Shown here: one piece after another, positions 200 through 13,506 of the stretch
Layout of the letters: each line of letters begins with the position of its first letter
How positions within the stretch are numbered: position 1 is the first letter of the stretch
From: a virus
IMG/VR virus record: IMGVR_UViG_3300030002_000116
Coordinates: 1-22,844 of that record
DNA length: 22,844 nt
Direction: 5' to 3' (one strand)
Position numbers and translations under genes: made by a program
The notes under the pieces: generated by a model
The model's input: only the letters and a program-made list of their open reading frames with translations
What the model was told of the DNA's origin: nothing
Databases searched by the model: none

Positions 200-433
200 A
201 ATTACTATATTTTTAAAATCTCCTTTGGGATTATCAGTTTTATATACTTCTTTAATATAAAATCTAACAACTCCGTTAGCTTCAACCTCTTTATTATCAA
301 ACCAAGTTCTTAAAACCTTTAGTTTACTATTTAATTTTCCATCGTTGATAAAGTGTAGATATTCCCATCTTCCCTCTCCGTAAACATCTTTATATATTTC
401 TACTTGAACAAATTTTCTTTTAAATATTGACAT
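197..433 (-). CDS. Hypothetical protein, 78 aa
   Basis: This 78-residue frame starts MSIFKRKFVQVEIYKDVYGE and is rich in aromatic and beta-forming residues (WEYLHFIN, VVRFYIKEVY). That suggests a small beta-sheet protein without membrane segment or signal peptide. It lies in the leftward operon of small genes and shares the local A/T start context. I do not recognise a family. The gene is accepted because of its length in a dense same-strand row and its normal codon use. Confidence 0.6.
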   Translation of the reverse strand: MSIFKRKFVQVEIYKDVYGEGRWEYLHFINDGKLNSKLKVLRTWFDNKEVEANGVVRFYIKEVYKTDNPKGDFKNIVI

Positions 434-468
434 AATGTATGATTATTAAATCTCTTATAACACTTTAA

Positions 469-630
469 TTATTTGTCTTCTTCTATTTCGAATAAAGTAA
501 GCTCAGCACCCATTCCGTAACGACCTTCAATTTCATCTTTAGCTAACTCAATCGCTTCTTTTTTAGTTTTAGCTTCAATATAAGCACTATCCATAAAAAA
601 TACATCAAGCTTAACATTCCATTTTCTCAT
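469..630 (-). CDS. Small DpnD/PcfM-like protein, 53 aa
   Basis: Reading from ATG at 630 gives a 53-residue frame ending in TAA at 469-471. It starts MRKWNVKLDVFF and contains an alternating strand followed by the helix IEAKTKKEAIELAKDEIEGR and an acidic tail. The pattern beta-strand, then 'A-x-T/S-x-x-E-A-I-x-x-A-K', is that of the small DpnD/PcfM-type proteins common in phages and plasmids; this assignment rests on pattern alone. The gene directly follows the tRNA-like element at 664-754 on the same strand. A rightward gene (13507-13668) has a similar build. Confidence 0.55.
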   Translation of the reverse strand: MRKWNVKLDVFFMDSAYIEAKTKKEAIELAKDEIEGRYGMGAELTLFEIEEDK

Positions 631-645
631 ACAATTTTTATTTAA

Positions 646-661
646 TTTACCAATAGTGAAA
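646..661 (-). repeat. 16-bp dispersed repeat beside tRNA-like elements
   Basis: TTTACCAATAGTGAAA occurs exactly at 646-661, 1854-1869 and 2105-2120. On the minus strand (TTTCACTATTGGTAAA) it lies just 3' of the elements at 664-754 and 2123-2254, and just 5' of the element at 1747-1842. It is therefore linked to the tRNA-like elements and not to any one gene. It may mark a duplicated unit, a processing site or a recombination point. Confidence 0.8.
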
Positions 662-663
662 GA

Positions 664-754
664 AAGATGTGGCTGGATTCGAACCAGCGATTACCTCAAA
701 TTAATGATTAGTAATAGTGTGCGACACCGCATTAAACCGCTCTGCCACACATCT
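664..754 (-). tRNA. Degenerate class II tRNA-like element
   Basis: On the minus strand the ends form a perfect 7-bp acceptor stem (AGATGTG/CACATCT). A perfect T-arm (GCTGG-TTCGAAT-CCAGC) and a Ser/Leu-type D-arm (GCAGAGCGGTTTAATGC) are present. The anticodon position is abnormal: the best arm is GTGT-CGC-ACAC, whose 3-nt loop cannot hold an anticodon. It is followed by a long variable-type arm ATTAC...GTAAT. It may be a tRNA pseudogene, a tRNA with an unusual insertion, or a deliberate tRNA mimic. A sister element at 2123-2254 shares the acceptor sequence and flanks. Confidence 0.5.
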
Positions 755-796
755 TTCTCTCGCTACTGGCCACCACCGAAGTGATGACTTTTGTTT

Positions 797-1501
797 TTAA
801 AGTTTGTTTGCTTCTACTTTTAATTCTTCTGCCTTATCAATTAATTCCTGAGCCTTTTTAAGTAGTTTAGTCTTTTGGCTGTTTTCTTCTTCAACTTTAC
901 AATCATCTTTTCCAATAAGTTCATAACTGCTATCTTCTCCTAAACTAAAGTATTTTAAATCTTCTTTCTTTTCTTTAAAACCAAAGAAATAACCTAGAGT
1001 AATTGACAATTTACCATAAACCCAAGCATTACCATAAACCTGAGCATTACCATAAACCTGAGCATTACCATAAACCCAAGCATCACCATAAACCCAAGCA
1101 TTACCATAAACCCAAGCATCACCATAAACCTGAGCATCACCATAAACCCAAGCATCACCATAAACCCGAGCATCACCATAAACCCGAGCATCACCATAAA
1201 CCTGAGCATCACCATGAACCCAAGCATTGCCATAAACCCGAGCATCACCATAAACCTGAGCATCACCATAAACCTGAGCATCACCATAAACCTGAGCATT
1301 ACCAGAAACCTGAGCATCACCATAAACCTGAGCATCACCATAAACCCAAGCATTACCATCTTCACTTACGTTTTCTTTTTTCTCGATGTAACCTCCTAAT
1401 TCTCCTTTACTTACATTACCAAATGACATTTCTGCCTTAATTTGATAAAGAGTAGTACCGCACCAAACTTTTGTGTTTTTTGTTAAGCTAAATTTTGACA
1501 T
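797..1501 (-). CDS. Hexapeptide-repeat (left-handed beta-helix-like) phage protein
   Basis: This is a 234-residue protein in three parts. The N-terminal domain (about 1-48: LTKNTKVWCGTTLYQIKAEM, then ELGGYIEKKENVS) is typical of phage and bacterial repeat proteins often annotated as polymer-forming. Residues about 50-165 hold 19 copies of the six-residue repeat (V-Y-G-[DN]-A-[QWR]), expected to fold as a repetitive beta-helix. The C-terminal part (about 165-234) ends in a lysine/glutamate-rich coiled coil. Role unknown; such proteins are often carried by phages as non-essential cargo. The repeats are near-identical at DNA level. A histidine/proline-rich frame on the other strand is only their shadow. 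Confidence 0.85.
   Translation of the reverse strand: MSKFSLTKNTKVWCGTTLYQIKAEMSFGNVSKGELGGYIEKKENVSEDGNAWVYGDAQVYGDAQVSGNAQVYGDAQVYGDAQVYGDARVYGNAWVHGDAQVYGDARVYGDARVYGDAWVYGDAQVYGDAWVYGNAWVYGDAWVYGNAQVYGNAQVYGNAWVYGKLSITLGYFFGFKEKKEDLKYFSLGEDSSYELIGKDDCKVEEENSQKTKLLKKAQELIDKAEELKVEANKL
1014..1361. repeat. 18-bp tandem repeat inside the beta-helix gene
   Basis: An 18-bp unit (cataaacctgagcatcac and close variants) repeats about 19 times without spacers. It encodes the hexapeptide repeat of the surrounding gene. Copies differ mainly at the codons for the variable repeat residues (Q, W, R; D or N). Exact periodicity with low divergence points to recent expansion or ongoing homogenisation by recombination. 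It is not a CRISPR array because there are no unique spacers. Confidence 0.9.
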
Positions 1502-1530
1502 ACTTTTATTATTAATTATTAGTTTATAGA

Positions 1531-1695
1531 TTAACTTGCCGACTGGTTATGGTTGGCAGGCAGTTCGTGTTGATGATTACACAAAGGACATACAGTAAAA
1601 TAAACTCCATACTTCCTTGTGGCGTTAAATTTATAATCAAACACAACTCCACAGTTTTGACAGTTTGTTAAATCTTCTAGCCTTATCTCTCTCAT
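1531..1695 (-). CDS. Small zinc-ribbon protein, 54 aa
   Basis: From ATG at 1695 to TAA at 1531 a 54-residue protein is encoded: MREIRLEDLTNCQNCGVVFD, then a basic stretch, then FTVCPLCNHQHE. Two CxxC pairs (NCQNC at about 11-15 and CPLC at about 36-39) form a classic four-cysteine zinc ribbon. Such single-domain ribbons are common in phages and usually bind nucleic acid or protein partners, but no specific role can be assigned. The start follows the duplicated leader also found at 168-199, which supports the call. Confidence 0.7.
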   Translation of the reverse strand: MREIRLEDLTNCQNCGVVFDYKFNATRKYGVYFTVCPLCNHQHELPANHNQSAS

Positions 1696-1746
1696 ATAAA
1701 TATCCTTAATTATTAAATCTCTTACAACACTTTAATTATTTGCTTT

Positions 1747-1842
1747 CGGAGGGGAGCCACAGCCAGCAAGGCTAGTTAATAGGGAATCGAACCCATCTAA
1801 AGTGGTATTGTCTTAAGCCTGTTTCCACTCTACCCCTCTCCG
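1747..1842 (-). tRNA. Degenerate tRNA-like element, possibly Leu-derived
   Basis: On the minus strand the ends pair as an acceptor-like stem (CGGAGAG with CCCTCCG, one mismatch). A T-loop core GGGTTCGATTCCC is present, and AGTGG...CCACT can pair around a segment containing CTTAAGA, which would read as anticodon UAA (Leu). About 30 nt lie between the T-loop core and the 3' acceptor strand, including a hairpin AGCC-TTGCT-GGCT, so a normal cloverleaf cannot form. It may be a decayed tRNA-Leu with an insertion or an unrelated structured RNA. Acceptance as a working tRNA is unlikely. Confidence 0.35.
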
Positions 1843-1869
1843 ACAACAAACAATTTACCAATAGTGAAA

Positions 1870-2088
1870 CTAATTGAATGGATTAAACTCAATTAGTTTT
1901 ATCTCTTTTTTACTTGAAAGTTGTTCTTTTATTTTTTTATAAGTTTCTCCTGCTTTGCCAATAAAAAGTCCAGGTCTTTCAAGATATATATTAATTTTAT
2001 TAAAAGAAATTGTTATTCTATGAATTTTAACATCTTCTTTTATTCCTAAATTTTCAAGGATAAATTTTAATTCAGTTTTAATTTTCAT
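1870..2088 (-). CDS. KH-domain protein resembling ribosomal protein S3 KH domain
   Basis: This is a 72-residue protein. Residues about 25-70 (INIYLERPGLFIGKAGETYKK... then EIKLIEFN) match the type II KH layout of ribosomal protein S3. In S3 a strand ends in 'ARPGxxIGxxG' followed by a helix and a final strand ending in 'IxEV/IEFN'. The GxxG RNA-binding loop is GKAG (44-47). The rest of S3 is absent, so this is a stand-alone KH domain. Known KH domains bind single-stranded RNA; a role in translation, RNA chaperoning or mRNA control is inference. It lies between two tRNA-like elements and downstream of the RNA ligase and lysozyme genes on the same strand. Confidence 0.7.
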   Translation of the reverse strand: MKIKTELKFILENLGIKEDVKIHRITISFNKINIYLERPGLFIGKAGETYKKIKEQLSSKKEIKLIEFNPFN

Positions 2089-2122
2089 ATAGTTTTAATT
2101 ATTTTTTACCAATAGTGAAAGA

Positions 2123-2254
2123 AAGATGTGGCTGGGATTTGCCGACTTAACCCGAGTTTTAGTTAAACAACGAAATATCTCACCCAGCATAGTTCACATA
2201 GGATAATTCGTGAACCTAGTTATCATTAGCGTCTACCTATTCCGCCACACATCT
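2123..2254 (-). tRNA. Degenerate Leu-like tRNA element with oversized T-loop
   Basis: On the minus strand the acceptor AGATGTG/CACATCT is identical to that of the element at 664-754. The D-arm TGGCGGAATAGGTAGACGC is nearly the textbook tRNA-Leu D-arm. A strong variable-type hairpin follows (GTTCAC...GTGAAC). The T-stem GCTGGG...CCCAGC encloses about 46 nt instead of 7, and no TTCGAAT loop is present. No convincing anticodon arm forms. About 130 nt is too long for a normal tRNA and too short for a typical group I intron insertion. Probable pseudogene or tRNA mimic. Confidence 0.45.
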
Positions 2255-2300
2255 TTCTCTCGCTGCTGGTTACCACGATTGTGAGAACTGATTTGTTAAT

Positions 2301-2705
2301 TTATCGGCACTCCCACCAACTTGGATGTAGTGGATATAGTTTTAAAAAGCATTTAATATTTAATTCGTTATCCATCACATCTCCACCACCACAGGCATAA
2401 TTCCAAGTTCCATATGTAAACTGATAAATCCCTTTAGCACTAGAATGTGGATTCTCCATTTGTGTTCCTAATTGGGATTCACATTTAGCAATTCTTAATG
2501 CTGTTAAAGTTGACACATCACTGTCAACTGTCAACCTAATTATCATATCACTAACTGATTCTATCTCTGGTGTTGTTGTAGTGGCAATATTTGCCACCGT
2601 GTTGACGTTTTTAACCTCTTCCTGACTATTTAGTGGTTTAGCATATACCACGCTAACACAGAGAAGAATTATAAATATTGACAATAACGCAAGTTTATAT
2701 TTCAT
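2301..2705 (-). CDS. Secreted lysozyme-like/transglycosylase protein
   Basis: The 134-residue protein starts with a signal peptide (MKYKLALLSIFIILLCVSVV, then YA-K), so it is exported. After a threonine-rich linker the catalytic-type segment ALRIAKCESQLG (about 69-80) supplies the glutamate E76 expected of the lysozyme/SLT fold. SSAKGIYQFTYGTWNYACG (about 88-106) is the second conserved block ('GxxQF...TW'). It should cleave peptidoglycan glycan strands, as an endolysin exported by the host Sec system or a wall-entry enzyme. At 134 residues it is shorter than most soluble lytic transglycosylases. Small exported proteins of this type are common in Patescibacteria, which bears on host choice. 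It directly follows the RNA ligase gene (15-bp gap). Confidence 0.75.
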   Translation of the reverse strand: MKYKLALLSIFIILLCVSVVYAKPLNSQEEVKNVNTVANIATTTTPEIESVSDMIIRLTVDSDVSTLTALRIAKCESQLGTQMENPHSSAKGIYQFTYGTWNYACGGGDVMDNELNIKCFLKLYPLHPSWWECR

Positions 2706-2720
2706 ACACTATTAATTTAA

Positions 2721-4007
2721 TTAATTAGCACTTTCCATATCAGCTTCTCCTTTGTCTAATTGTGATGTTTCATAAGCTAGGAAATCAAAGCTCTTTAATT
2801 TGTATGACTCAAACCACATTAAACTTTCAACTCTTAATACCATACCTTCTTTTGGAACTTTTTTAAGGCACATATCACAATCACCAGTGGCATATTGTTC
2901 TTCAAGTCTTTTTATTAGTTCTTCATTCCAATGTTCATCTAAAGATAATTCAGGGTAAATATTTTTAGCATAACCAACATAGTATAATGGAACATAATTT
3001 AATCCCATCTTATCACAAAATTCTTTTATTTGTAAAGTGGATAACTCTTGAATAAATCCATCAGGATTAACAGTTGTTATTCTATAAATAAATATCTTGT
3101 GTTCATCTGGTTTACATCCGTAATCATAACCTGATTGAATCGCACCACCAGTTTTAGTAAAGCCAACACATTCTCCGTAAATATTCCAGTTCTTAGGAAT
3201 TTTATCTTTTAATTCTTCTTTGATTTCAGCGTATAAATCTCCATCATAGAAATCATTAATATTTTGTGTTTCGTATTGGTTCTTAATTACCTTTCTACTT
3301 CCATAAATAATATCGTATTCCGTTTTATTTATATCAAATAACTTTCCAATAAGTTTAGTAAATATATTTGATTTCTTTTTAACAATTACATTATGAACGT
3401 GGAATGAAGTTCCGTGAAGTTTATTTGTAATACTTACAAAGTAATCTGGTTTAATCTTAAAAGCTTCTTTTCTTAAATTTGTAGTATCAACGTGAAGTAA
3501 AACTTGACCTTCAACTAACTTAGATATTCTTGGTTTCTTTCCTAGTTTATTATCATTATTCATTCCCTTAATTGGAAGTTCGTATTTCTTAACCATTAAA
3601 ATATCATTAATAGTATCAAATTCCATCCCAATTTCATCATTTTTAAATTTACCTGTAAATTCTTCAACTACAAGAAGTGGAACAATATAACCCATTGACT
3701 TCTCACCCCTTAATTTTACAGCACGAACTCTACCATTCTTATCAAAGTAACCTTTAATAGTTGTATCTTCATTTAACAACTGACTAGCAAATTGATTAGT
3801 ATGTTTCAAGAACTCAAAATGGATTTGACTTTCAACTGGAAAATATACAACTAAATCACCAACCTTTGTATCCATTCCTGTTATAACATCATTAAAATCA
3901 ATAACAGCAACTTGAAGTCTTTCAGCGTTTTCGTGCTTTCTTAAATTTTCTATTTTAACCACCTTAGCTAAATAATTTGGATTAGCTTGTTTTGAAATTG
4001 ATAACAT
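2721..4007 (-). CDS. RNA ligase, DRB0094/Rnl5-like
   Basis: The 428-residue protein has the nucleotidyltransferase motifs of an ATP-dependent RNA ligase. Motif I is KLHGTS with nucleophile K196; motif III is around NWNIYGECVG (about 273-282); motif IV is EGMVLRVE (387-394); motif V is YKLKS (402-406). An N-terminal module of about 115 residues (YLAKVVKIENLRKHENAERL...) looks like an OB/tRNA-binding-type domain, as in the Deinococcus DRB0094 (Rnl5) ligases that carry an N-terminal OB module. The reaction is sealing of 3'-OH to 5'-phosphate RNA ends via ligase-AMP. The gene follows directly after twelve tRNA genes, and a polynucleotide kinase-phosphatase lies before them, so tRNA repair is the likely job. 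Confidence 0.85.
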   Translation of the reverse strand: MLSISKQANPNYLAKVVKIENLRKHENAERLQVAVIDFNDVITGMDTKVGDLVVYFPVESQIHFEFLKHTNQFASQLLNEDTTIKGYFDKNGRVRAVKLRGEKSMGYIVPLLVVEEFTGKFKNDEIGMEFDTINDILMVKKYELPIKGMNNDNKLGKKPRISKLVEGQVLLHVDTTNLRKEAFKIKPDYFVSITNKLHGTSFHVHNVIVKKKSNIFTKLIGKLFDINKTEYDIIYGSRKVIKNQYETQNINDFYDGDLYAEIKEELKDKIPKNWNIYGECVGFTKTGGAIQSGYDYGCKPDEHKIFIYRITTVNPDGFIQELSTLQIKEFCDKMGLNYVPLYYVGYAKNIYPELSLDEHWNEELIKRLEEQYATGDCDMCLKKVPKEGMVLRVESLMWFESYKLKSFDFLAYETSQLDKGEADMESAN

Positions 4008-4029
4008 AAATATTTATTAATTATTATTG

Positions 4030-4101
4030 TTCTCAGGGTAGGGTTCGAACCTACATACTCAGGTTCAAAACCTGATGTCCTGCCAGTTAGACGACCTGGG
4101 A
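4030..4101 (-). tRNA. tRNA-Gln (anticodon UUG)
   Basis: Acceptor TCCCAGG/CCTGAGA (one mismatch), D-arm GTCT...GGAC, anticodon arm TCAGG-TTTTGAA-CCTGA giving UUG, and T-arm GTAGG-TTCGAAC-CCTAC. Last tRNA of the leftward array, 22 bp before the RNA ligase ATG. No CCA encoded. Confidence 0.92.
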
Positions 4102-4116
4102 TTATTTAAAAATTAT

Positions 4117-4189
4117 GTGCTGCCAACTGGAATCGAACCAATGTCGTAAGATTAAGAGTCTTCCATTCTACCATTGAAATATAGCAGCA
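4117..4189 (-). tRNA. tRNA-Lys (anticodon CUU)
   Basis: Acceptor TGCTGCT/GGCAGCA; the anticodon arm has loop CTCTTAA giving CUU; the T-arm carries TTCGATT. One of two adjacent Lys tRNAs, which together read AAG and AAA. Confidence 0.88.
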
Positions 4190-4193
4190 TATG

Positions 4194-4264
4194 TCCCCCC
4201 ACCAAGAATCGAACTTAGGTCATCTGATTAAAAGTCATCTACTCTACCATTGAGATATAGGGAG
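4194..4264 (-). tRNA. tRNA-Lys (anticodon UUU)
   Basis: Acceptor CTCCCTA/TGGGGGG (two G-U pairs), anticodon loop CTTTTAA giving UUU, T-arm CTAAG-TTCGATT-CTTGG, discriminator A. The anticodon stem is weak, with only three clear pairs. In coli, tRNA-Lys(UUU) is the target of the PrrC anticodon nuclease, which makes its presence beside repair enzymes notable. Confidence 0.86.
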
Positions 4265-4268
4265 TTTG

Positions 4269-4341
4269 TATTACCAGCAGGACTCGAACCTGCGACATTT
4301 GCCTTATAAGAGCAACACTCTACCAACTGAGCTATGGTAAT
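4269..4341 (-). tRNA. tRNA-Ile (anticodon UAU)
   Basis: Perfect acceptor ATTACCA/TGGTAAT, D-arm GCTC...GAGT, anticodon arm TTGCT-CTTATAA-GGCAA giving UAU, and T-arm with TTCGAGT. UAU reads AUA directly. Most bacteria instead use CAU modified to lysidine by TilS, so this isoacceptor avoids that need. Confidence 0.9.
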
Positions 4342-4346
4342 AAATG

Positions 4347-4419
4347 TATCTCCTGTTGGAATCGAACCAACTATCCTTGTGGATGTAAACCACCTGTTCC
4401 ACCATCAAACTAAGGAGAT
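4347..4419 (-). tRNA. tRNA-Val (anticodon UAC)
   Basis: Perfect acceptor ATCTCCT/AGGAGAT, anticodon arm GTGG-TTTACAT-CCAC giving UAC, T-arm GTTGG-TTCGATT-CCAAC, discriminator A. Confidence 0.92.
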
Positions 4420-4424
4420 ATATG

Positions 4425-4496
4425 TAGTGACTGAAAGAATCGAACTTTATACTTCTTATATATCAGCTAAGCGTTCTACCAATGAACTAAGTCACT
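4425..4496 (-). tRNA. tRNA-Ile (anticodon GAU)
   Basis: Perfect acceptor AGTGACT/AGTCACT, D-arm GTTC-ATTGGTA-GAAC, anticodon loop CTGATAT giving GAU, T-loop TTCGATT (outer T-stem pair mismatched), discriminator A. Confidence 0.88.
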
Positions 4497-4502
4497 ATAA
4501 AG

Positions 4503-4585
4503 CGGAAAGTGTAGGATTCGAACCCACGGATGTTTCCATCTCCTGTTTTCAAAACAGGTGCGATAGTCCACTCTGCCAACCTTCC
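4503..4585 (-). tRNA. tRNA-Ser (anticodon UGA)
   Basis: Class II tRNA with acceptor GGAAGGT/ACTTTCC, anticodon arm CCTGT-TTTGAAA-ACAGG giving UGA, a long variable arm (GATGGAAACATC), T-loop TTCGAAT, and discriminator G as expected for Ser. Confidence 0.93.
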
Positions 4586-4589
4586 AGTG

Positions 4590-4660
4590 CGTAGAGTATA
4601 GGAATCGAACCTATGTAAACAGATTAACAGTCTGCGGCTCTACCATTGAGCAAACTCTAC
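4590..4660 (-). tRNA. tRNA-Asn (anticodon GUU)
   Basis: Perfect acceptor GTAGAGT/ACTCTAC, anticodon arm CAGA-CTGTTAA-TCTG giving GUU, T-arm ATAGG-TTCGATT-CCTAT, discriminator G as expected for Asn. Confidence 0.93.
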
Positions 4661-4664
4661 AATG

Positions 4665-4735
4665 TGCTTCAGCCTTGAATCGAACAATAATCTAATGGGC
4701 TTCAACCATTCGCACTTCCGTTGTGCCACTGAAGC
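4665..4735 (-). tRNA. tRNA-Phe (anticodon GAA)
   Basis: Perfect acceptor GCTTCAG/CTGAAGC, D-arm GCAC...GTGC, anticodon arm AATGG-TTGAAGC-CCATT giving GAA, discriminator A. The T-stem is weakened by mismatches but the loop TTCGATT is intact. Confidence 0.88.
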
Positions 4736-4739
4736 ATTG

Positions 4740-4811
4740 TGCTGATATGGGGAGTCGAACCCCAGTATGATGATAGAAAGTCATCTGTCTTAACCACTGG
4801 ACGATATCAGC
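4740..4811 (-). tRNA. tRNA-Glu (anticodon UUC)
   Basis: Perfect acceptor GCTGATA/TATCAGC, anticodon arm GATGA-CTTTCTA-TCATC giving UUC, T-arm GGGG-TTCGACT-CCCC, discriminator A. Confidence 0.92.
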
Positions 4812-4816
4812 ATATG

Positions 4817-4901
4817 TATCATCGGTGGGATTCGAACCCACACACCATTTCTGGTATCTGGTTCTAAGCCAGACGTGTCTACCAGTTCCGACCACGATGA
4901 T
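4817..4901 (-). tRNA. tRNA-Leu (anticodon UAG)
   Basis: Class II tRNA with perfect acceptor ATCATCG/CGATGAT, anticodon arm TCTGG-CTTAGAA-CCAGA giving UAG, variable arm TACCAGAAATGGT, T-arm GTGGG-TTCGAAT-CCCAC, discriminator A. Confidence 0.94.
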
Positions 4902-4902
4902 G

Positions 4903-4974
4903 CGACCTAGCGGAGAATCGAACTCCGATTACTTGGTAGACAGCCAAGTATAATAACCATTATATCACTAAGTC
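4903..4974 (-). tRNA. tRNA-Asp (anticodon GUC)
   Basis: Acceptor GACTTAG/CTAGGTC, anticodon arm CTTGG-CTGTCTA-CCAAG giving GUC, T-arm CGGAG-TTCGATT-CTCCG, discriminator G as expected for Asp. First tRNA of the leftward array, starting 8 bp after the kinase-phosphatase stop. Confidence 0.93.
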
Positions 4975-4982
4975 AGTTGACC

Positions 4983-5843
4983 CTAGAAATCAACCCTAGG
5001 GTCTTGTCTACTTACATCACATACCATTAAACCAAGTTTCTTCCACATTCTAATTACTCTTGGTCTATCATCAAATACACACAGAACATTATACTTACCT
5101 TTTACTCCTTCATTATAAAGTTCTTCTTTAATAATGGAATCTTCTCTCATATCACCTTCTTTTCTCATTCCAAATAATCTTACAGGAATATTATTTTTAA
5201 TCAACCAGTCAACAGTTTCTTTTTGACAATTACTTTCACGACCACTTAAAATTACAACTGGAAGATTTAATCTTTGTAAAACTTCGATAAGTTTTTTGTT
5301 AGGTAAATCTTGGTCTACTTTTTTGTAGTCATAAACACTTCGTTCTGGAGAATAAGCAAGTGTTCCATCGATATCACAGATAACGCAAGTTGGAAGTTCT
5401 GGTTCATCTTTGAAATCATTACTTTCTATTCCTGCTCTTAGATACTGATTATACATTTTTAAGATAACTTTTTTTCCAACTGGTCTTTCTCTTTTTGAAT
5501 CTCTTTCAATACATTCGTATAAAGGAGTGGGAAAGAATAAAACTTCACATTCAACTAATTGTTCAGAACATATTTCTTTTATAGTATCAATATGTTTTGG
5601 TGCGAAATTTGTATCATCAATTACAACGCTATAACCATCTTCAAGAAACTTCAATAACAAATTATTTCTTATCTTTAATATTTCTTTTTCGTTTCTTTCA
5701 GTCCATTTTGAATTGTCAATCATAGCTCTTAGGTCATCTTTATTAATACGTTTCCAACATAGTTTTTCTACAAGTTGGAGGGCATATGTCGTCTTGCCCG
5801 AAGCGATTAATCCTTGTAATATTAGCACTTTTTGCTTACTCAT
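4983..5843 (-). CDS. pseT: Polynucleotide 5'-kinase / 3'-phosphatase (T4 PseT type)
   Basis: The 286-residue protein has both halves of T4 polynucleotide kinase (301 residues). The N-terminal kinase has the P-loop GLIASGKT (11-18), KDDLRAM (about 36-41), and lid arginines in RDSKRERPVGKK (about 114-125). The C-terminal HAD-type phosphatase has CDIDGTLA (D157 and D159), LSGRES (199-204) and DDRPRVIRMWKKLGL (258-272). It adds 5'-phosphate and removes 3'- or 2',3'-cyclic phosphate from broken RNA, preparing ends for an RNA ligase. The ligase gene lies downstream on the same strand beyond twelve tRNA genes, probably on one transcript. In T4 this enzyme pair repairs tRNA-Lys cut by PrrC. Start at 5843 fits the local AAAACTATG context. 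Confidence 0.93.
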   Translation of the reverse strand: MSKQKVLILQGLIASGKTTYALQLVEKLCWKRINKDDLRAMIDNSKWTERNEKEILKIRNNLLLKFLEDGYSVVIDDTNFAPKHIDTIKEICSEQLVECEVLFFPTPLYECIERDSKRERPVGKKVILKMYNQYLRAGIESNDFKDEPELPTCVICDIDGTLAYSPERSVYDYKKVDQDLPNKKLIEVLQRLNLPVVILSGRESNCQKETVDWLIKNNIPVRLFGMRKEGDMREDSIIKEELYNEGVKGKYNVLCVFDDRPRVIRMWKKLGLMVCDVSRQDPRVDF

Positions 5844-5882
5844 AGTTTTATAACTTAATTTTATTATAGCGTTCTGAATTAA

Positions 5883-6209
5883 TTAGTATGATTGATATGT
5901 TCCTTGATAAGGTTCACATTTGTTATTTTCAAAGAAATCTTCTACTGTCTTATCTTCTTCAATATTAAATATTTTTGCTGTTACATCTGTAACTTTTTTT
6001 TCTTCATTACCACCATTACAAGAACAACCACTTAGATAAGACCAAATTAAATCACCATTTTCTTTAACACCTAAGCATTCTTTATATTCTTCATAACTAC
6101 CACCTTCATTTTTTTCGGCAATAATAACAAATTCACCATTATCACTTGTCATTTTATCTAAAGAATTATAGTTTTTTTTGACTTCTTCTATTCTTTCTTT
6201 TAAGTTCAT
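5883..6209 (-). CDS. Hypothetical protein, 108 aa
   Basis: This acidic, probably cytoplasmic protein starts MNLKERIEEVKKNYNSLDKM. It has a central region GSYEEYKECLGVKENGDLIW and a short CSCNGG stretch, and a C-terminal part with VEDFFENNKCEP. There is no signal peptide or membrane segment. No family recognised. It lies between the kinase-phosphatase gene and the pilin-like gene, with a 130-bp gap on the pilin side that could hold its own promoter. Confidence 0.65.
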   Translation of the reverse strand: MNLKERIEEVKKNYNSLDKMTSDNGEFVIIAEKNEGGSYEEYKECLGVKENGDLIWSYLSGCSCNGGNEEKKVTDVTAKIFNIEEDKTVEDFFENNKCEPYQGTYQSY

Positions 6210-6340
6210 ATATTATTTATGTTTTTCAAAACCATCACTTTCGATTTTATTTTGTAATTTTATTCAATCGTATCTTGCTTATGTCGAGTAAACAACTACC
6301 AAGATATATAATGATTAGGGGATTCAGTTCTAAGCGTTAA

Positions 6341-6562
6341 TTATTTAATTGTATTTACTGGATAAGAATTTGTAAAGTGACTAATACAACCTGCTGGAAT
6401 GTTATTTAATGAACTGAATTTATAAATATCACAATTCATTTCAAATTGTTTTCCGTCAACATTATCTTTTGAATTGTTAAACGCAACAACTGATAATGTA
6501 GCAAGTAATCCTATAATAGATACTACTACTAATAATTCAATTAATGTAAATCCTTTACGCAT
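6341..6562 (-). CDS. Type IV pilin-like protein with class III signal
   Basis: With ATG at 6562 the protein has 73 residues and begins with a prepilin leader and core, MRKGFTLIELLVVVSIIGLL. The leader would be cut between G4 and F5, and the Glu at mature position 5 is in place. The hydrophobic N-terminal helix ends in AFNNSKDN. The globular part is very short (about 40 residues, with two cysteines). An upstream in-frame ATG (6583) would add seven residues and overlap the previous gene, so 6562, 4 bp after that gene's stop, is preferred. It could be processed by host prepilin peptidase and join the host pilus or pseudopilus. Virus-borne pilins are unusual. The motif wording is typical of Patescibacteria pilins (inference). 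Confidence 0.8.
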   Translation of the reverse strand: MRKGFTLIELLVVVSIIGLLATLSVVAFNNSKDNVDGKQFEMNCDIYKFSSLNNIPAGCISHFTNSYPVNTIK

Positions 6563-6566
6563 ATAA

Positions 6567-6743
6567 TTAAACTTCTTTACCATTTAAGATATCAGCTACT
6601 AATTGAGCAGCAGCATCTTCTTTTTTAGTAAACGATTCTTTATCAATAGTATCACATAATGTGATAAACTTTTTTTCAGCAGATTTAATTCTTAAATTTA
6701 CTGCTTCCATTACTCTTTTTTTAATTGACTTGTTTCCTAACAT
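6567..6743 (-). CDS. Hypothetical helical protein, 58 aa
   Basis: ATG at 6743 to TAA at 6567 encodes MLGNKSIKKRVMEAVNLRIK... ending ...LVADILNGKEV. The sequence is lysine-rich and predicts as two helices, with an alanine run in KKEDAAAQLVAD. It lies 2 bp after the SPFH-like gene and 4 bp before the pilin-like start, so the three genes form a tight unit. No family recognised. Confidence 0.65.
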   Translation of the reverse strand: MLGNKSIKKRVMEAVNLRIKSAEKKFITLCDTIDKESFTKKEDAAAQLVADILNGKEV

Positions 6744-6745
6744 AT

Positions 6746-7549
6746 TTATTTAAGATTAACCATTGGCGTATTAGCACCTAGAGTTGTAGAAGGTAATTGA
6801 CCATTCCACTTTTCAACCCATTTTAAATTAACATATTCAGCACCACCTTGATTTTGAATAGCACCTGCTTGGATTCTAATTGCTTCAGCTTCACCTTTAG
6901 CAGTTGTAATTCTTTGCTCTGCTTCAAATTTAACTTGTTCCAATTTATTCTTAGCGGCTAATGCTGATTGTTCAGCAGTTACTTTAGCTTCAATTGCTTG
7001 ATTAAATGATTGTGAGAAATCAAAGTTAGTAATATTTATCTGGCTAATAATAATTCCATAAGGAAGCATTTTATCTGATAACAATCCTTTAATTTCATCT
7101 CTTACTAATTCACGTTTTGTTATAAGTTCTTCGGCTGTATATTTAGCTGTTACAGCTTTTACAGATTCTTGAACTGCTGGGTCTACTAATCTTGTTTTAT
7201 AATCTTTACCAACTGTCTTATAAATATTATCTACATAATCTGGGGATAGATTATAATTGATAGCTAACTTAGAATTTACAGTCTGTAAATCTTTTGAAGC
7301 AGCACCAGCTTCTACTTCATCTTTTTGGATTTTTACATCCATTACTTTAACTGATTCAATGTAAGGAATTTTTGTATAAAACCCTTCATCAACAGTTCCC
7401 ACAACAGCATTCATTTTTAAACGCACACCACGTTCACCAGCACCAACTGTTCCCCAACTTGACCATAGAAGTGGAAGGACAATAAATAGTCCAATAAATC
7501 CACCAACAATTAATGACACAATTTTCTTTGTTGACATTTCTTCGTTCAT
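6746..7549 (-). CDS. SPFH/prohibitin-family membrane protein
   Basis: The 267-residue protein has a short cytoplasmic start, one membrane helix (about 9-30: VSLIVGGFIGLFIVLPLLW), then an SPFH/band 7 domain. Landmarks of that domain are GERGVRLKMNAVVGTVDEGF and later VKAVTAKYTAEELITKRELV. A long alanine/glutamate coiled coil follows (about 185-230), including EAKVTAEQSALAAKNKLEQV. Length and order match bacterial prohibitin homologues. SPFH proteins form rings or cages at the membrane and act with FtsH protease and other membrane systems. A phage version might protect or reorganise the host membrane or block FtsH; that is inference. It is followed without gap by two small genes including the pilin-like one. 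Confidence 0.88.
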   Translation of the reverse strand: MNEEMSTKKIVSLIVGGFIGLFIVLPLLWSSWGTVGAGERGVRLKMNAVVGTVDEGFYTKIPYIESVKVMDVKIQKDEVEAGAASKDLQTVNSKLAINYNLSPDYVDNIYKTVGKDYKTRLVDPAVQESVKAVTAKYTAEELITKRELVRDEIKGLLSDKMLPYGIIISQINITNFDFSQSFNQAIEAKVTAEQSALAAKNKLEQVKFEAEQRITTAKGEAEAIRIQAGAIQNQGGAEYVNLKWVEKWNGQLPSTTLGANTPMVNLK

Positions 7550-7571
7550 AGTTTTTTATTTAATAATTAAT

Positions 7572-7997
7572 TTAATTAGTTTTTTGACCGTGTTCTTCTC
7601 TGTGATGTTTAAAGCATAACCATTTAACATATAATGGTCTTCTATAATCTGGATGATGTGCCTGAGATTTTATATCTCCACATATTTCACAGGGAAGTCT
7701 GTTTAATTTTCCTTTTTTAATTAAGTTATTTACCATTCTATTTGCTTTTGTTTTATTAGGATGATTAATAACTCTTTTTCTTTGATATTCTTTAATTTTT
7801 AATTTACGTTCAGGATTATTAAATCTTAATTTTTCGTATTCAATAACTTTATTTCTACCTTCTTCTGTGCTATATCTATCTTTAACGTCTTTTTTATTAC
7901 ATTCTTTACATTTATTAACGTGTCCGTCTGGCATTTGTGAATGTTTATAAAATTCACTTATCTCTTTTTCTTTTTTACACTTAAAACATTTCTTCAT
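7572..7997 (-). CDS. HNH-type zinc-finger protein, putative endonuclease
   Basis: The 141-residue basic protein has an N-terminal four-cysteine zinc finger (C4xxC7 and C30xxC33, in MKKCFKCKKEKEISEFYKHS and KCKECNKK). A basic middle follows, then a compact HNH-like end: PCEICG (about 102-107), AHHPDYRRPLYVKWLCFKHH (about 113-132) and EEHG. This arrangement is common in phage HNH proteins, either free-standing homing endonucleases or recombination and packaging nucleases. The site between the SSB-like/ERF block and the membrane genes, with a hairpin just upstream, would suit a mobile HNH gene. Confidence 0.75.
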   Translation of the reverse strand: MKKCFKCKKEKEISEFYKHSQMPDGHVNKCKECNKKDVKDRYSTEEGRNKVIEYEKLRFNNPERKLKIKEYQRKRVINHPNKTKANRMVNNLIKKGKLNRLPCEICGDIKSQAHHPDYRRPLYVKWLCFKHHREEHGQKTN

Positions 7998-11896: not shown

Positions 11897-11969
11897 GTGG
11901 GTGTAATGTTTAACGGTAGCATATCTGCCTTCCAAGCAGGGTGAAGGAGTTCGAATCCCCTTATCCACA
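11897..11969 (+). tRNA. tRNA-Gly (anticodon UCC)
   Basis: Acceptor GTGGGTG/TATCCAC, D-arm ATGT...GCAT, anticodon arm TCTGC-CTTCCAA-GCAGG giving UCC, T-loop TTCGAAT, discriminator A. First tRNA of the rightward array. Confidence 0.92.
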
Positions 11970-11977
11970 CAAATTCT

Positions 11978-12262
11978 ATGAAATTACCTAAAGAAATTAA
12001 GATTGGCGGATTAGTTTATAAGATAGAAGAAAAAGATTTAAGGATAACTGAAGTAGAAAATAATTCTGGATATTGTAGAGTAAATGATGAAAAGATTGTT
12101 ATTAATTCAGAACTAACTGAAAATGTAAAAGAGTCAACATTATTACACGAAATTATAGAAGCAATTAATTTTAATCATCAATTAGAATTACCACACTCAA
12201 CTATAATGACATTAGAAGCAACTTTGTATCAAGTAATAAAAGATAATAAATTATTTAAATAA
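11978..12262 (+). CDS. Minimal metallopeptidase-like protein (HExxE), 94 aa
   Basis: The 94-residue protein starts MKLPKEIKIGGLVYKIEEKD with a strand-rich part, then the helix STLLHEIIEAINFNHQLELP and the final helix LEATLYQVIKDN. The HEIIEAI helix sits where the HExxH metal site lies in small phage zincin-like proteins of the SprT/ImmA-like kind. Here the second histidine is replaced by glutamate, so catalysis is doubtful. Such proteins are common in phage genomes and mostly uncharacterised. It lies 8 bp after tRNA-Gly and 3 bp before the next small gene. Confidence 0.7.
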   Translation: MKLPKEIKIGGLVYKIEEKDLRITEVENNSGYCRVNDEKIVINSELTENVKESTLLHEIIEAINFNHQLELPHSTIMTLEATLYQVIKDNKLFK

Positions 12263-12265
12263 TAT

Positions 12266-12373
12266 ATGAAATCAATGTTTAAAAAGGTTACTAAGGAATT
12301 AGTAAAGGATATGGAGAAGAAAGAAAAGATGTGTAAGAAATGTGGTAAGAAAAAGAGTAACTGTAAATGTTAA
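12266..12373 (+). CDS. Lysine/cysteine-rich small protein, 35 aa
   Basis: ATG at 12266 to TAA at 12371-12373 encodes MKSMFKKVTKELVKDMEKKE, then KMCKKCGKKKSNCKC. The cysteine pattern CxxC-x(7)-CxC and high lysine content suggest a tiny metal-binding, nucleic-acid-contacting peptide. It follows the previous gene by 3 bp with the usual AATATATG-type start. No family recognised. Confidence 0.55.
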   Translation: MKSMFKKVTKELVKDMEKKEKMCKKCGKKKSNCKC

Positions 12374-12409
12374 TTAATAAATAAACAAATGTTTATAAAA
12401 AATAAAAGT

Positions 12410-12500
12410 CCGTTCTAATAACGGAAAAAAGGGGAAAAATCCATTACTACGATAACGTCTAACATTAGGTAGTGTAAAAAGAAAGTATCCCCTTTCTTTA
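12410..12500 (+). ncRNA. Candidate structured RNA between genes and tRNAs
   Basis: Three nested or adjacent pairings fill this stretch. They are a hairpin CCGTT-CTAAT-AACGG (12410-12424), a long-range stem AAAGGGG (12428-12434) with CCCCTTT (12489-12495), and inside it ACTAC (12446-12450) with GTAGT (12469-12473) next to CTAA-CA-TTAG (12459-12468). An alternative hairpin AAAGAAAG/CTTTCTTT overlaps the 3' side. No open frame of note is present. No known RNA family recognised. It ends just before tRNA-Trp. Confidence 0.4.
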
Positions 12501-12501
12501 T

Positions 12502-12572
12502 GTCGGAGTGATGTAGTGGTAGCATAAATGATTCCAAATCATTTTGTCTAGGTTCGATTCCTAGTGCCGATG
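12502..12572 (+). tRNA. tRNA-Trp (anticodon CCA)
   Basis: Acceptor GTCGGAG/TGCCGAT (one A-G mismatch), D-arm ATGT...GCAT, anticodon arm AATGA-TTCCAAA-TCATT giving CCA, T-arm CTAGG-TTCGATT-CCTAG, discriminator G as expected for Trp. CCA reads UGG only, in agreement with UGA acting as a stop. Confidence 0.9.
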
Positions 12573-12576
12573 CGTA

Positions 12577-12659
12577 TGTAAGTATAGTAAAGCGGTCAAA
12601 TACGCTTGGCTGTAAACCAAGTGCTTCGGCTTCGTGGGTTCGAATCCTACTGCTTACAC
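12577..12659 (+). tRNA. tRNA-Tyr (anticodon GUA)
   Basis: Class II tRNA with acceptor TGTAAGT/GCTTACA, anticodon arm CTTGG-CTGTAAA-CCAAG giving GUA, long variable arm TGCTTCGGCTTCG and T-loop TTCGAAT. Confidence 0.9.
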
Positions 12660-12676
12660 AAATTGTTTATTGCGGT

Positions 12677-12750
12677 GTGGATATAGTTCAATGATAGAAC
12701 AACCGTTTGTGAAGCGGAGAATGTGAGTTTGATTCTCACTATTCACCCCA
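12677..12750 (+). tRNA. tRNA-His (anticodon GUG), with encoded CCA
   Basis: Perfect acceptor GTGGATA/TATTCAC (one G-U), D-arm GTTC...GAAC, anticodon loop TTGTGAA giving GUG, and a TTTGATT T-loop. Discriminator C, typical of tRNA-His, is followed by CCA. The genome has T, not G, at position -1, so G-1 would have to be added after transcription. Confidence 0.9.
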
Positions 12751-12764
12751 TAGTAAATAAAAAT

Positions 12765-12836
12765 AGCGGGGTAGGGTAGAGGTCACCCGACAGGCTAATA
12801 ATCTGTATTACATTGGTTCGAATCCAATCTCCGCCA
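12765..12836 (+). tRNA. tRNA with anticodon AAU (Ile-type), unusual
   Basis: Acceptor AGCGGGG/CTCCGCC pairs at six of seven positions (A1-C72 mismatch). D-arm GGGT...ACCC, anticodon arm ACAGG-CTAATAA-TCTGT giving AAU, T-arm ATTGG-TTCGAAT-CCAAT, discriminator A. AAU would read AUU. Bacteria rarely keep A at position 34 outside tRNA-Arg(ACG), so decoding or identity is uncertain. Confidence 0.75.
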
Positions 12837-12855
12837 CAGTTATAAAGTTTCGATT

Positions 12856-12927
12856 CAGGGATTGATATAATGGCTATTATATGTGCTTTGGAAGCATAAA
12901 AAGTTGGTTCAATTCCAGCACCCCTGA
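12856..12927 (+). tRNA. tRNA-Pro (anticodon UGG)
   Basis: Acceptor CAGGGAT/ACCCCTG (one mismatch), anticodon arm TGTGC-TTTGGAA-GCATA giving UGG, T-arm GTTGG-TTCAATT-CCAGC, discriminator A. Confidence 0.88.
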
Positions 12928-12931
12928 CATT

Positions 12932-13003
12932 CATCTATTGGCGAAGTGGAAACGCTGCTGTCCGCAAAACAGAGATGCGTTGGTTCGATTCCAACATAGA
13001 TGT
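12932..13003 (+). tRNA. tRNA-Cys (anticodon GCA)
   Basis: Perfect acceptor CATCTAT/ATAGATG, D-arm GCG...CGC, anticodon loop CCGCAAA giving GCA, T-arm GTTGG-TTCGATT-CCAAC. Discriminator U as expected for Cys. Confidence 0.92.
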
Positions 13004-13011
13004 CAAATAAT

Positions 13012-13084
13012 GGGCGATAATGTTCCAAGGTAGGCGAAAATCATTTGCGATGAATTTGGGTGGGTTCGATTCCCACATTGTCCA
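13012..13084 (+). tRNA. tRNA-Ala (anticodon UGC)
   Basis: Acceptor GGGCGAT/ATTGTCC contains the G3-U70 pair that defines tRNA-Ala. Anticodon arm AATCA-TTTGCGA-TGAAT gives UGC; T-arm GTGGG-TTCGATT-CCCAC; discriminator A. D-arm and anticodon stems are weak. Confidence 0.82.
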
Positions 13085-13192
13085 CACCAAGAAAATATGA
13101 AATGCTAAAGAGAAAGATGACGAATGCTTGACCAGCTCCATCTACACAGTATCAAGGTAAAGCTAATAATTAACTTTTATGTCTGGTTAAAT

Positions 13193-13324
13193 ATGAAATT
13201 CAAATCTAGAAACAAACATAATAGAAATCTTAGCATTAAGTATAAGTGTAAGATGAATAAGGTTTATAAATTATTACAGGAACGTAAGGTAGAGTTAAGG
13301 GCTATAAAGGTATTCGATTACTAA
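13193..13324 (+). CDS. Hypothetical basic small protein, 43 aa
   Basis: ATG at 13193 (context TTAAATATG) to TAA at 13322-13324 encodes MKFKSRNKHNRNLSIKYKCK, then MNKVYKLLQERKVELRAIKV and FDY. It is extremely basic at the start, then helical, as expected of a small nucleic-acid-binding peptide. Its last 26 bp overlap the tRNA-like element at 13299-13360, which lowers confidence in one or the other. The preceding 108 bp after tRNA-Ala hold only very short frames. Confidence 0.4.
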   Translation: MKFKSRNKHNRNLSIKYKCKMNKVYKLLQERKVELRAIKVFDY

Positions 13325-13360
13325 TATAGTAAGACCAGAGTTCAATTCTCTGATAGTCCA
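13299..13360 (+). tRNA. tRNA-like element lacking a D-arm
   Basis: Acceptor GGGCTAT/ATAGTCC (seven pairs, one G-U), T-arm CAGAG-TTCAATT-CTCTG and discriminator A are perfect. Only 30 nt lie between acceptor and T-arm, enough for one hairpin (TTAC-TAATATA-GTAA) but not for both D- and anticodon arms. That loop has no U33 before its putative anticodon. Total 62 nt. It may be a decayed tRNA, an internally deleted one or a mimic recognised by tRNA enzymes. Confidence 0.5.
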
Positions 13361-13378
13361 CAAACAACAATATATAAC

Positions 13379-13426
13379 CAGCGAACGCTGAAGAAGTAAT
13401 AAAAGTTACTTAGGGGAGAAATCCCC
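13379..13426 (+). ncRNA. Three tandem hairpins before tRNA-Thr
   Basis: Three perfect hairpins follow one another almost without spacer: CAGC-GAAC-GCTG (13379-13390), AAGTAA-TAAAAG-TTACTT (13394-13411) and GGGGA-GAAA-TCCCC (13413-13426). No U-run follows, so termination is not implied. They lie 4 bp before tRNA-Thr and may guide processing of the tRNA transcript or form a small RNA. Confidence 0.45.
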
Positions 13427-13430
13427 AACT

Positions 13431-13503
13431 GCCGTCTTAGCTCAATTGGTTGAGCATTCGCCTTGTAAGCGAAAGGTTGAAGGTTCGATTCTTTCAGTCG
13501 GCA
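13431..13503 (+). tRNA. tRNA-Thr (anticodon UGU)
   Basis: Acceptor GCCGTCT/AGTCGGC, D-arm GCTC...GAGC, anticodon arm TTCGC-CTTGTAA-GCGAA giving UGU, T-arm GAAGG-TTCGATT-CTTTC, discriminator A. Last tRNA of the rightward array. Confidence 0.94.
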
Positions 13504-13506
13504 CAT

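Follow-up and report, generated by a model that had tools for sequence, protein, structure and literature searches.

A twelve-tRNA array between a polynucleotide kinase-phosphatase and an Rnl5-like RNA ligase as a candidate phage tRNA supply-and-repair island

The reason why phages carry tRNAs has long been debated, and the question is raised here by a viral locus in which twelve tRNA genes stand between two RNA repair enzymes: do the enzymes serve the tRNAs, or do they only share a place with them? The locus lies in IMG/VR virus record IMGVR_UViG_3300030002_000116, which was analyzed in its entirety (22,844 bases, linear, 31% G+C; hereafter ‘the window’). The window also encodes a terminase, a major capsid protein and an Erf-type annealing protein, and its source is a virus of bacteria. 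In order of transcription on the minus strand, a T4-type polynucleotide 5'-kinase/3'-phosphatase (Pnkp, 5843-4983) is followed by the twelve tRNA genes (4974-4029) and then by an Rnl5-like RNA ligase (4007-2721). The reading favored on balance is that this locus would be a phage tRNA supply-and-repair island.

This one-strand layout had been proposed in a first-pass annotation made from the sequence alone, and it is confirmed by the open reading frames (ORFs), domain matches, ARAGORN and Rfam. The 8-bp gap reported between Pnkp and the first tRNA stands (4975-4982), whereas the gap before the ligase is 21 bp (4008-4028) and not 22 bp. The count of twelve tRNA genes also holds, with 11 called by ARAGORN between 4029 and 4974 and the twelfth, Lys-TTT, recovered by Rfam (46.7 bits) and by a low-scoring ARAGORN call.

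The upstream enzyme is a Pnkp of the T4 type, as first proposed. Its 286 residues contain the two domains in the T4 order (PF13671 kinase at 6-130; PF25109 HAD_PNKP phosphatase at 151-280, E 1e-40), phrog_505 matches it over its full length, and its PDB relatives include Pnkp1 (4xrp) and T4 Pnkp (1ltq, E 9e-28 over 4-277). The catalytic residues K17, D36, R39, D76, R118, D157, D159, R168 and D259 are invariant in an alignment of eight proteins. Assignment to a bacterial Pnkp/Hen1 or Pnkp1/Rnl/Hen1 complex was considered and rejected, because the protein is only 286 residues long and TIGR04075 covers only its kinase part (27.7 bits against a cut-off of 750). No Hen1-like protein was recognized among the neighboring genes scanned.

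The downstream enzyme, a ligase of 428 residues, has an N-terminal OB domain (residues ~1-115, PF21189) and a C-terminal nucleotidyltransferase domain (~165-418, PF09414) without a C-terminal RNA ligase domain, and it is matched over its full length by phrog_968 (‘RNA ligase’). Its nucleophile, K196, lies within KLHGTS, and the residues of KxxG and motifs III, IV and V (K196/H198/G199, E279, E387/G388 and K403/K405) are invariant or more than 90% conserved among 40 homologues. An AlphaFold2 model built from 40 homologues (pLDDT 87.9) aligns with Naegleria NgrRnl over residues 9-416 (Z 27.1, rmsd 2.7, 306 residues), while the matches to T4 Rnl2 (Z 16.6, aligned only from residue 164) and T4 Rnl1 (Z 13.2) each cover fewer than 190 residues. 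The earlier label ‘Rnl5-like’ is right for the architecture because the end-to-end fold match to NgrRnl exceeds those to both T4 ligases, and a distant match to TIGR02306, which represents the Deinococcus ligase DRB0094, points the same way (E 2.1e-13). At 49.9 bits this match falls under the 151-bit cut-off, a threshold for equivalogs of DraRnl rather than for every member of the fold family, and ‘Rnl5-like’ is therefore the term used here. That the ligase is of a family other than T4 Rnl1 is likewise borne out by these Z-scores and by the absence of a PF09511 match. Membership in Rnl2, the label given to the paralogues in XacN1 (PMC7824862), was rejected since the fold comparison favors Rnl5. 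When the OB domain is folded alone, its best match is again NgrRnl (Z 10.7), and the next are tRNA-binding OB domains, namely YtpR, the PheRS beta chain, a Staphylococcus tRNA-binding protein, MetRS-C and Trbp111 (Z 8.5 to 5).

A search of viral contigs using the window's ligase alone returned nothing, and homologues were obtained using alignments as queries. One resulting locus (L094) has 99.75% DNA identity to the window over 9.6 kb and is therefore left out as independent evidence. The kinase-tRNA-ligase order, which the first-pass annotation had suggested looking for in other genomes, was found in IMGVR 3300020048_000291 (L016, L095), where Pnkp is 61% and the ligase 53% identical to those of the window. 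The order there is Pnkp, Asp, Leu, Phe, Asn, Ser, Val, Arg and ligase, with the first six of the seven tRNAs colinear with the window; the Leu and Arg tRNAs were called by eye, and the Arg stretch is also an Rfam match. The flanks of the two loci are partly syntenic (Erf, p92, p147, p94), and the genes directly upstream of Pnkp differ. Because the arrangement recurs in an independent relative it is not a product of chance, and since its order is kept at 53-61% identity the block has been passed down as a unit, with turnover of single tRNAs and of the genes upstream of Pnkp.

Other relatives carry parts of the block. A locus with five tRNAs (L045) ends its array, like the window, with Gln-TTG, ~15 bp before the ligase; Pnkp was not found on this contig, whose end falls inside the ligase. 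A further locus (L014) has a tRNA a few bp after Pnkp. A search of genome contigs with a five-sequence alignment of the clade yielded a contig of an Ignavibacteriales metagenome-assembled genome (MAG; L337), on which Pnkp, an Rnl5-like ligase (52%), tRNA-Cys and tRNA-Asn lie within 2.4 kb (5082-7454). This contig also has ORFs resembling histidine-degradation enzymes, and it could be either a prophage remnant or a bacterial copy.

Pairs with ligases of other families are also found beside tRNAs. In L108-L110 a PF09511 (Rnl1) ligase overlaps Pnkp, and tRNA arrays flank the pair on either side; in L105 a PF09414 (Rnl2-type) ligase and then Pnkp stand between four tRNAs and a tRNA-Tyr. A sample of 140 kinase-ligase pairs (90 non-redundant at 70% Pnkp identity, 80 at 60%) was gathered through similarity to tRNA-linked seeds, and 30 of the 80 pairs had any tRNA in the fetched stretch. 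A tRNA lay within 200 bp of either gene in 10 of 30 pairs (2.4 expected, P 0.001) and, with the query seeds excluded, in 7 of 27 (2.2 expected, P 0.005). Pnkp considered alone was close to a tRNA in 7 of 39 cases (2.0 expected, P 0.007), and all seven were on the same strand. The tRNA proximity of kinase-ligase pairs is enriched about four-fold across three ligase families, relative to a null that shifts tRNA positions inside the locus. As this null has no matching for accessory genes, a shared insertion hot spot could also contribute. Further RNA-related genes occur near homologues: RlaP in L014 and L096, an annotated tRNA nucleotidyltransferase in DatBoi (L013), a CCA-adding-like ORF read from the sequence of L003 and a Ro-like protein in Gordonia Trax (L007).

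If the locus is a tRNA supply-and-repair island, the phage would supply, from one stretch of DNA, replacement tRNAs together with the enzymes for healing and sealing broken RNA. A host ribonuclease would cut tRNAs during infection. Pnkp, whose T4-type active sites are intact, would then strip the 3' or cyclic phosphate and phosphorylate the 5'-OH, and the Rnl5-like ligase, to judge from its motifs and fold, would adenylate itself and rejoin the ends. The OB domain, given its structural resemblance to tRNA-binding OB domains, may steer the ligase to tRNA. Pnkp, tRNAs and ligase are probably on one transcript, and the second tRNA array of the window (Table 1) is probably part of the same supply. 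By analogy with T4 and with published models, the role of such an island may be counter-defence. The coupling of tRNA arrays to repair enzymes of several ligase families lends genomic support to that answer to why phages carry tRNAs, its cassette shape makes the answer testable against known anticodon nucleases, and tRNA becomes a possible biological substrate of phage Rnl5-type ligases. A broader proposal, more doubtful than the reading of this one locus, is that phages repeatedly build tRNA arrays and an exchangeable Pnkp/ligase pair (Rnl1, Rnl2 or Rnl5, sometimes with RlaP) into one counter-defence island, in which the Rnl5 OB domain would be a tRNA-binding module aiming the ligase at tRNAs; this is put forward tentatively.

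Several observations weigh against a supply-and-repair island. Kinase-ligase-tRNA linkage is a minority state, with a tRNA within 300 bp in 11 of the 90 non-redundant pairs and between the two genes in only 4. In one relative (L034, ligase 56%) Pnkp and the ligase overlap and the tRNAs are ~7 kb away; the separation of kinase and ligase from tRNAs in relatives, which the first-pass annotation had named as evidence against a module, is thus partly borne out, by this locus, the actinophages L005-L007 and T4. The earlier suggestion that the module is ‘self-contained’ is not supported as worded: nine further tRNAs lie 7 kb from the repair genes on the opposite strand, and neither an anticodon nuclease nor a gene for RlaP or a CCA-adding enzyme was recognized on the 22.8-kb fragment. 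PADLOC gave zero matches. The Rnl5 and Rnl2 enzymes characterized so far act on nicks in duplexes, whereas a break in the anticodon loop lies in a single strand; the title of PDB entry 5cot names NgrRnl as a nick-sealing ligase. A nick in a tRNA stem, another duplex or another RNA may therefore suit the enzyme better than a loop break. By sequence, the match of the OB domain to PF01588 (tRNA_bind) is not significant (E 0.022), so the likeness, which is structural only (Z ~8), is a lead. Promoter and terminator scans give the one-transcript idea no support: two terminator-like sites were found in 400-7600, both on the plus strand and none on the minus strand of the cassette, and a scan for sigma-70 promoters gave fewer sites than shuffles did, which makes it uninformative for this AT-rich genome.

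Three other explanations were weighed. The strongest of them holds that tRNA arrays are insertion-prone, non-core regions that collect accessory genes, and that the repair genes have no functional tie to the tRNAs. Such an origin is unlikely here but has to be taken seriously: besides the minority status of the linkage, the order varies, with tRNAs between, before or after the pair, the T4 tRNA cluster contains the unrelated homing endonuclease segB and small ORFs, and the null's lack of matching for accessory genes leaves room for it. It sits poorly with a block that is kept in a relative despite changed genes upstream of Pnkp, with the same-strand position of every close Pnkp-tRNA case and with an enrichment that extends over three ligase families. 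A role for the enzymes in mending nucleic acids other than tRNA (rRNA or mRNA, or else nicked phage DNA or RNA-DNA duplexes), with the tRNAs providing only codon- or tRNA-level compensation, is improbable. The nick-sealing character of Rnl5 enzymes and the many Pnkp/Rnl pairs in phages without nearby tRNAs would suit this account, but it has to set aside tRNA co-location above expectation, the tRNA-end enzymes and RlaP near homologues, and the tRNA-binding-like OB domain.

It is very improbable that ligase and kinase mature the phage's own tRNA-like or interrupted RNAs and do not address host damage. The candidates for such substrates are three same-strand tRNA-like elements without a normal anticodon arm downstream of the ligase (655-765, 1735-1850 and 2110-2265); however, blastn found no such elements in any other locus, and the other tRNAs are uninterrupted and do not need ligation.

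Table 1. Repair enzymes and tRNA genes of the window, with supporting evidence
Feature	Positions	Strand	Evidence and remarks
Rnl5-like RNA ligase, 428 aa	2721..4007	-	PF21189, PF09414, phrog_968, TIGR02306, AF2 model, motifs
tRNA-Gln (TTG)	4029..4101	-	ARAGORN, Rfam; 21 bp upstream of ligase; L045 ligase also directly preceded by tRNA-Gln
tRNA-Lys (CTT)	4117..4188	-	ARAGORN, Rfam
tRNA-Lys (TTT), weaker call	4193..4264	-	Rfam 46.7 bits; ARAGORN low-score
tRNA-Ile (TAT)	4268..4341	-	ARAGORN, Rfam
tRNA-Val (TAC)	4346..4419	-	ARAGORN, Rfam; ortholog in L095
tRNA-Ile (GAT)	4424..4496	-	ARAGORN, Rfam
tRNA-Ser (TGA)	4502..4585	-	ARAGORN, Rfam; ortholog in L095
tRNA-Asn (GTT)	4589..4660	-	ARAGORN, Rfam; ortholog in L095
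tRNA-Phe (GAA)	4664..4735	-	ARAGORN, Rfam; ortholog in L095
tRNA-Glu (TTC)	4739..4811	-	ARAGORN, Rfam
tRNA-Leu (TAG)	4816..4901	-	ARAGORN, Rfam; Leu-like sequence at matching place in L095
tRNA-Asp (GTC)	4902..4974	-	ARAGORN, Rfam; ortholog L095 8944-9016
T4-type Pnkp, 286 aa	4983..5843	-	Pfam, phrog_505, PDB relatives, alignment
Second tRNA array, nine genes (Gly, Trp, Tyr, His, initiator-like AAT, Pro, Cys, Ala, Thr)	11897..13504	+	ARAGORN, Rfam

In the second array, the tRNA called Ile-AAT (12765-12837) looks initiator-like, with a 1-72 mismatch and purine 11-pyrimidine 24. The tRNA at the same place in L333 (8574-8642) has the anticodon CAT, as does one with a similar body in L336 (1738-1811), and in the window and L094 the wobble base is A, giving AAT. 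L227/L228 were rejected as carriers of another altered initiator tRNA because the sequence is not a tRNA.

Compared with shuffles, the three tRNA-like elements beyond the ligase fold with z-scores of -5.1, -2.6 and -4.3, respectively. The first and third, which thus fold far better than shuffled sequence, have a common 22-nt closing stem, and ARAGORN calls the first tRNA-Val; the three recall the stable RNAs rnaC and rnaD beside the T4 tRNAs. Among the protein-coding features, a gene for an SPFH/Band 7 protein is found near the repair enzymes in the window (6746-7549, minus strand), L045 (5173-5958) and L105 (8548-9405), and is confirmed by Pfam in the window only. In a minus-strand ORF at 797-1501 an 18-bp unit is repeated in tandem ~19 times, and the VYGDAQ-like hexapeptides that it encodes are of the kind seen in left-handed beta-helix proteins. 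A small minus-strand ORF at 6341-6583 has a type IV pilin-like N-terminal methylation motif, which is odd in a phage. No Shine-Dalgarno-like motif was found for any of the 23 window genes examined, whose leaders are rich in A/T, as is seen in Bacteroidota and their relatives. The closest cellular relative comes from the Ignavibacteriales MAG, and the host may plausibly belong to the Bacteroidota/Ignavibacteriota group.

The closest known systems include T4. There Pnkp heals and the ligase seals tRNA cut by PrrC. T4 pseT and rnlA resemble the window in the two-domain Pnkp with conserved catalytic residues and in being a kinase-ligase pair in a tRNA-encoding phage, but the T4 ligase is Rnl1, and pseT and rnlA at 134-137 kb are ~62 kb from the tRNAs at 71-72.5 kb. 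The actinophages Mycobacterium Contagion, Microbacterium Tandem and Gordonia Trax have homologues of both enzymes, a Pnkp (~32-36%) and a phrog_968 ligase (~30-33%), side by side and in one direction, while the few tRNAs that they carry are 4 to 7 kb from the pair. The Rnl5 family members NgrRnl and DraRnl (DRB0094) have the same order of OB and nucleotidyltransferase domains as the window's ligase, which differs from them in its ~19% identity, its length (428 versus 340 residues) and its score under the TIGR02306 equivalog cut-off.

An RNA ligase at a tRNA region also has parallels in the literature, cited here from the portions of each paper available. RtcB lies in or ~1 kb from the tRNA cluster of Sphingobium Lacusarx (PMC5648845) and Proteus Privateer (PMC7881722), and has been proposed to keep the tRNAs usable. 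RtcB, however, is a 3'-5' ligase of unrelated origin, those portions mention no Pnkp for either phage, and the Lacusarx authors regard the location of the ligase as not essential, as relatives are without the linkage (PMC5648845). It has also been proposed that phages counter tRNA attack through tRNA provision plus RNA repair (PMC7824862) and that phage tRNAs are anticodon-nuclease-resistant substitutes (PMC10264068); these accounts share the general idea presented here, and the available text of both describes no kinase-tRNA array-ligase cassette. That arrangement was not found described in the open-licence literature. The idea of tRNA supply plus repair is thus already published, and the arrangement of the window has a precedent in the RtcB genes of phage tRNA regions.

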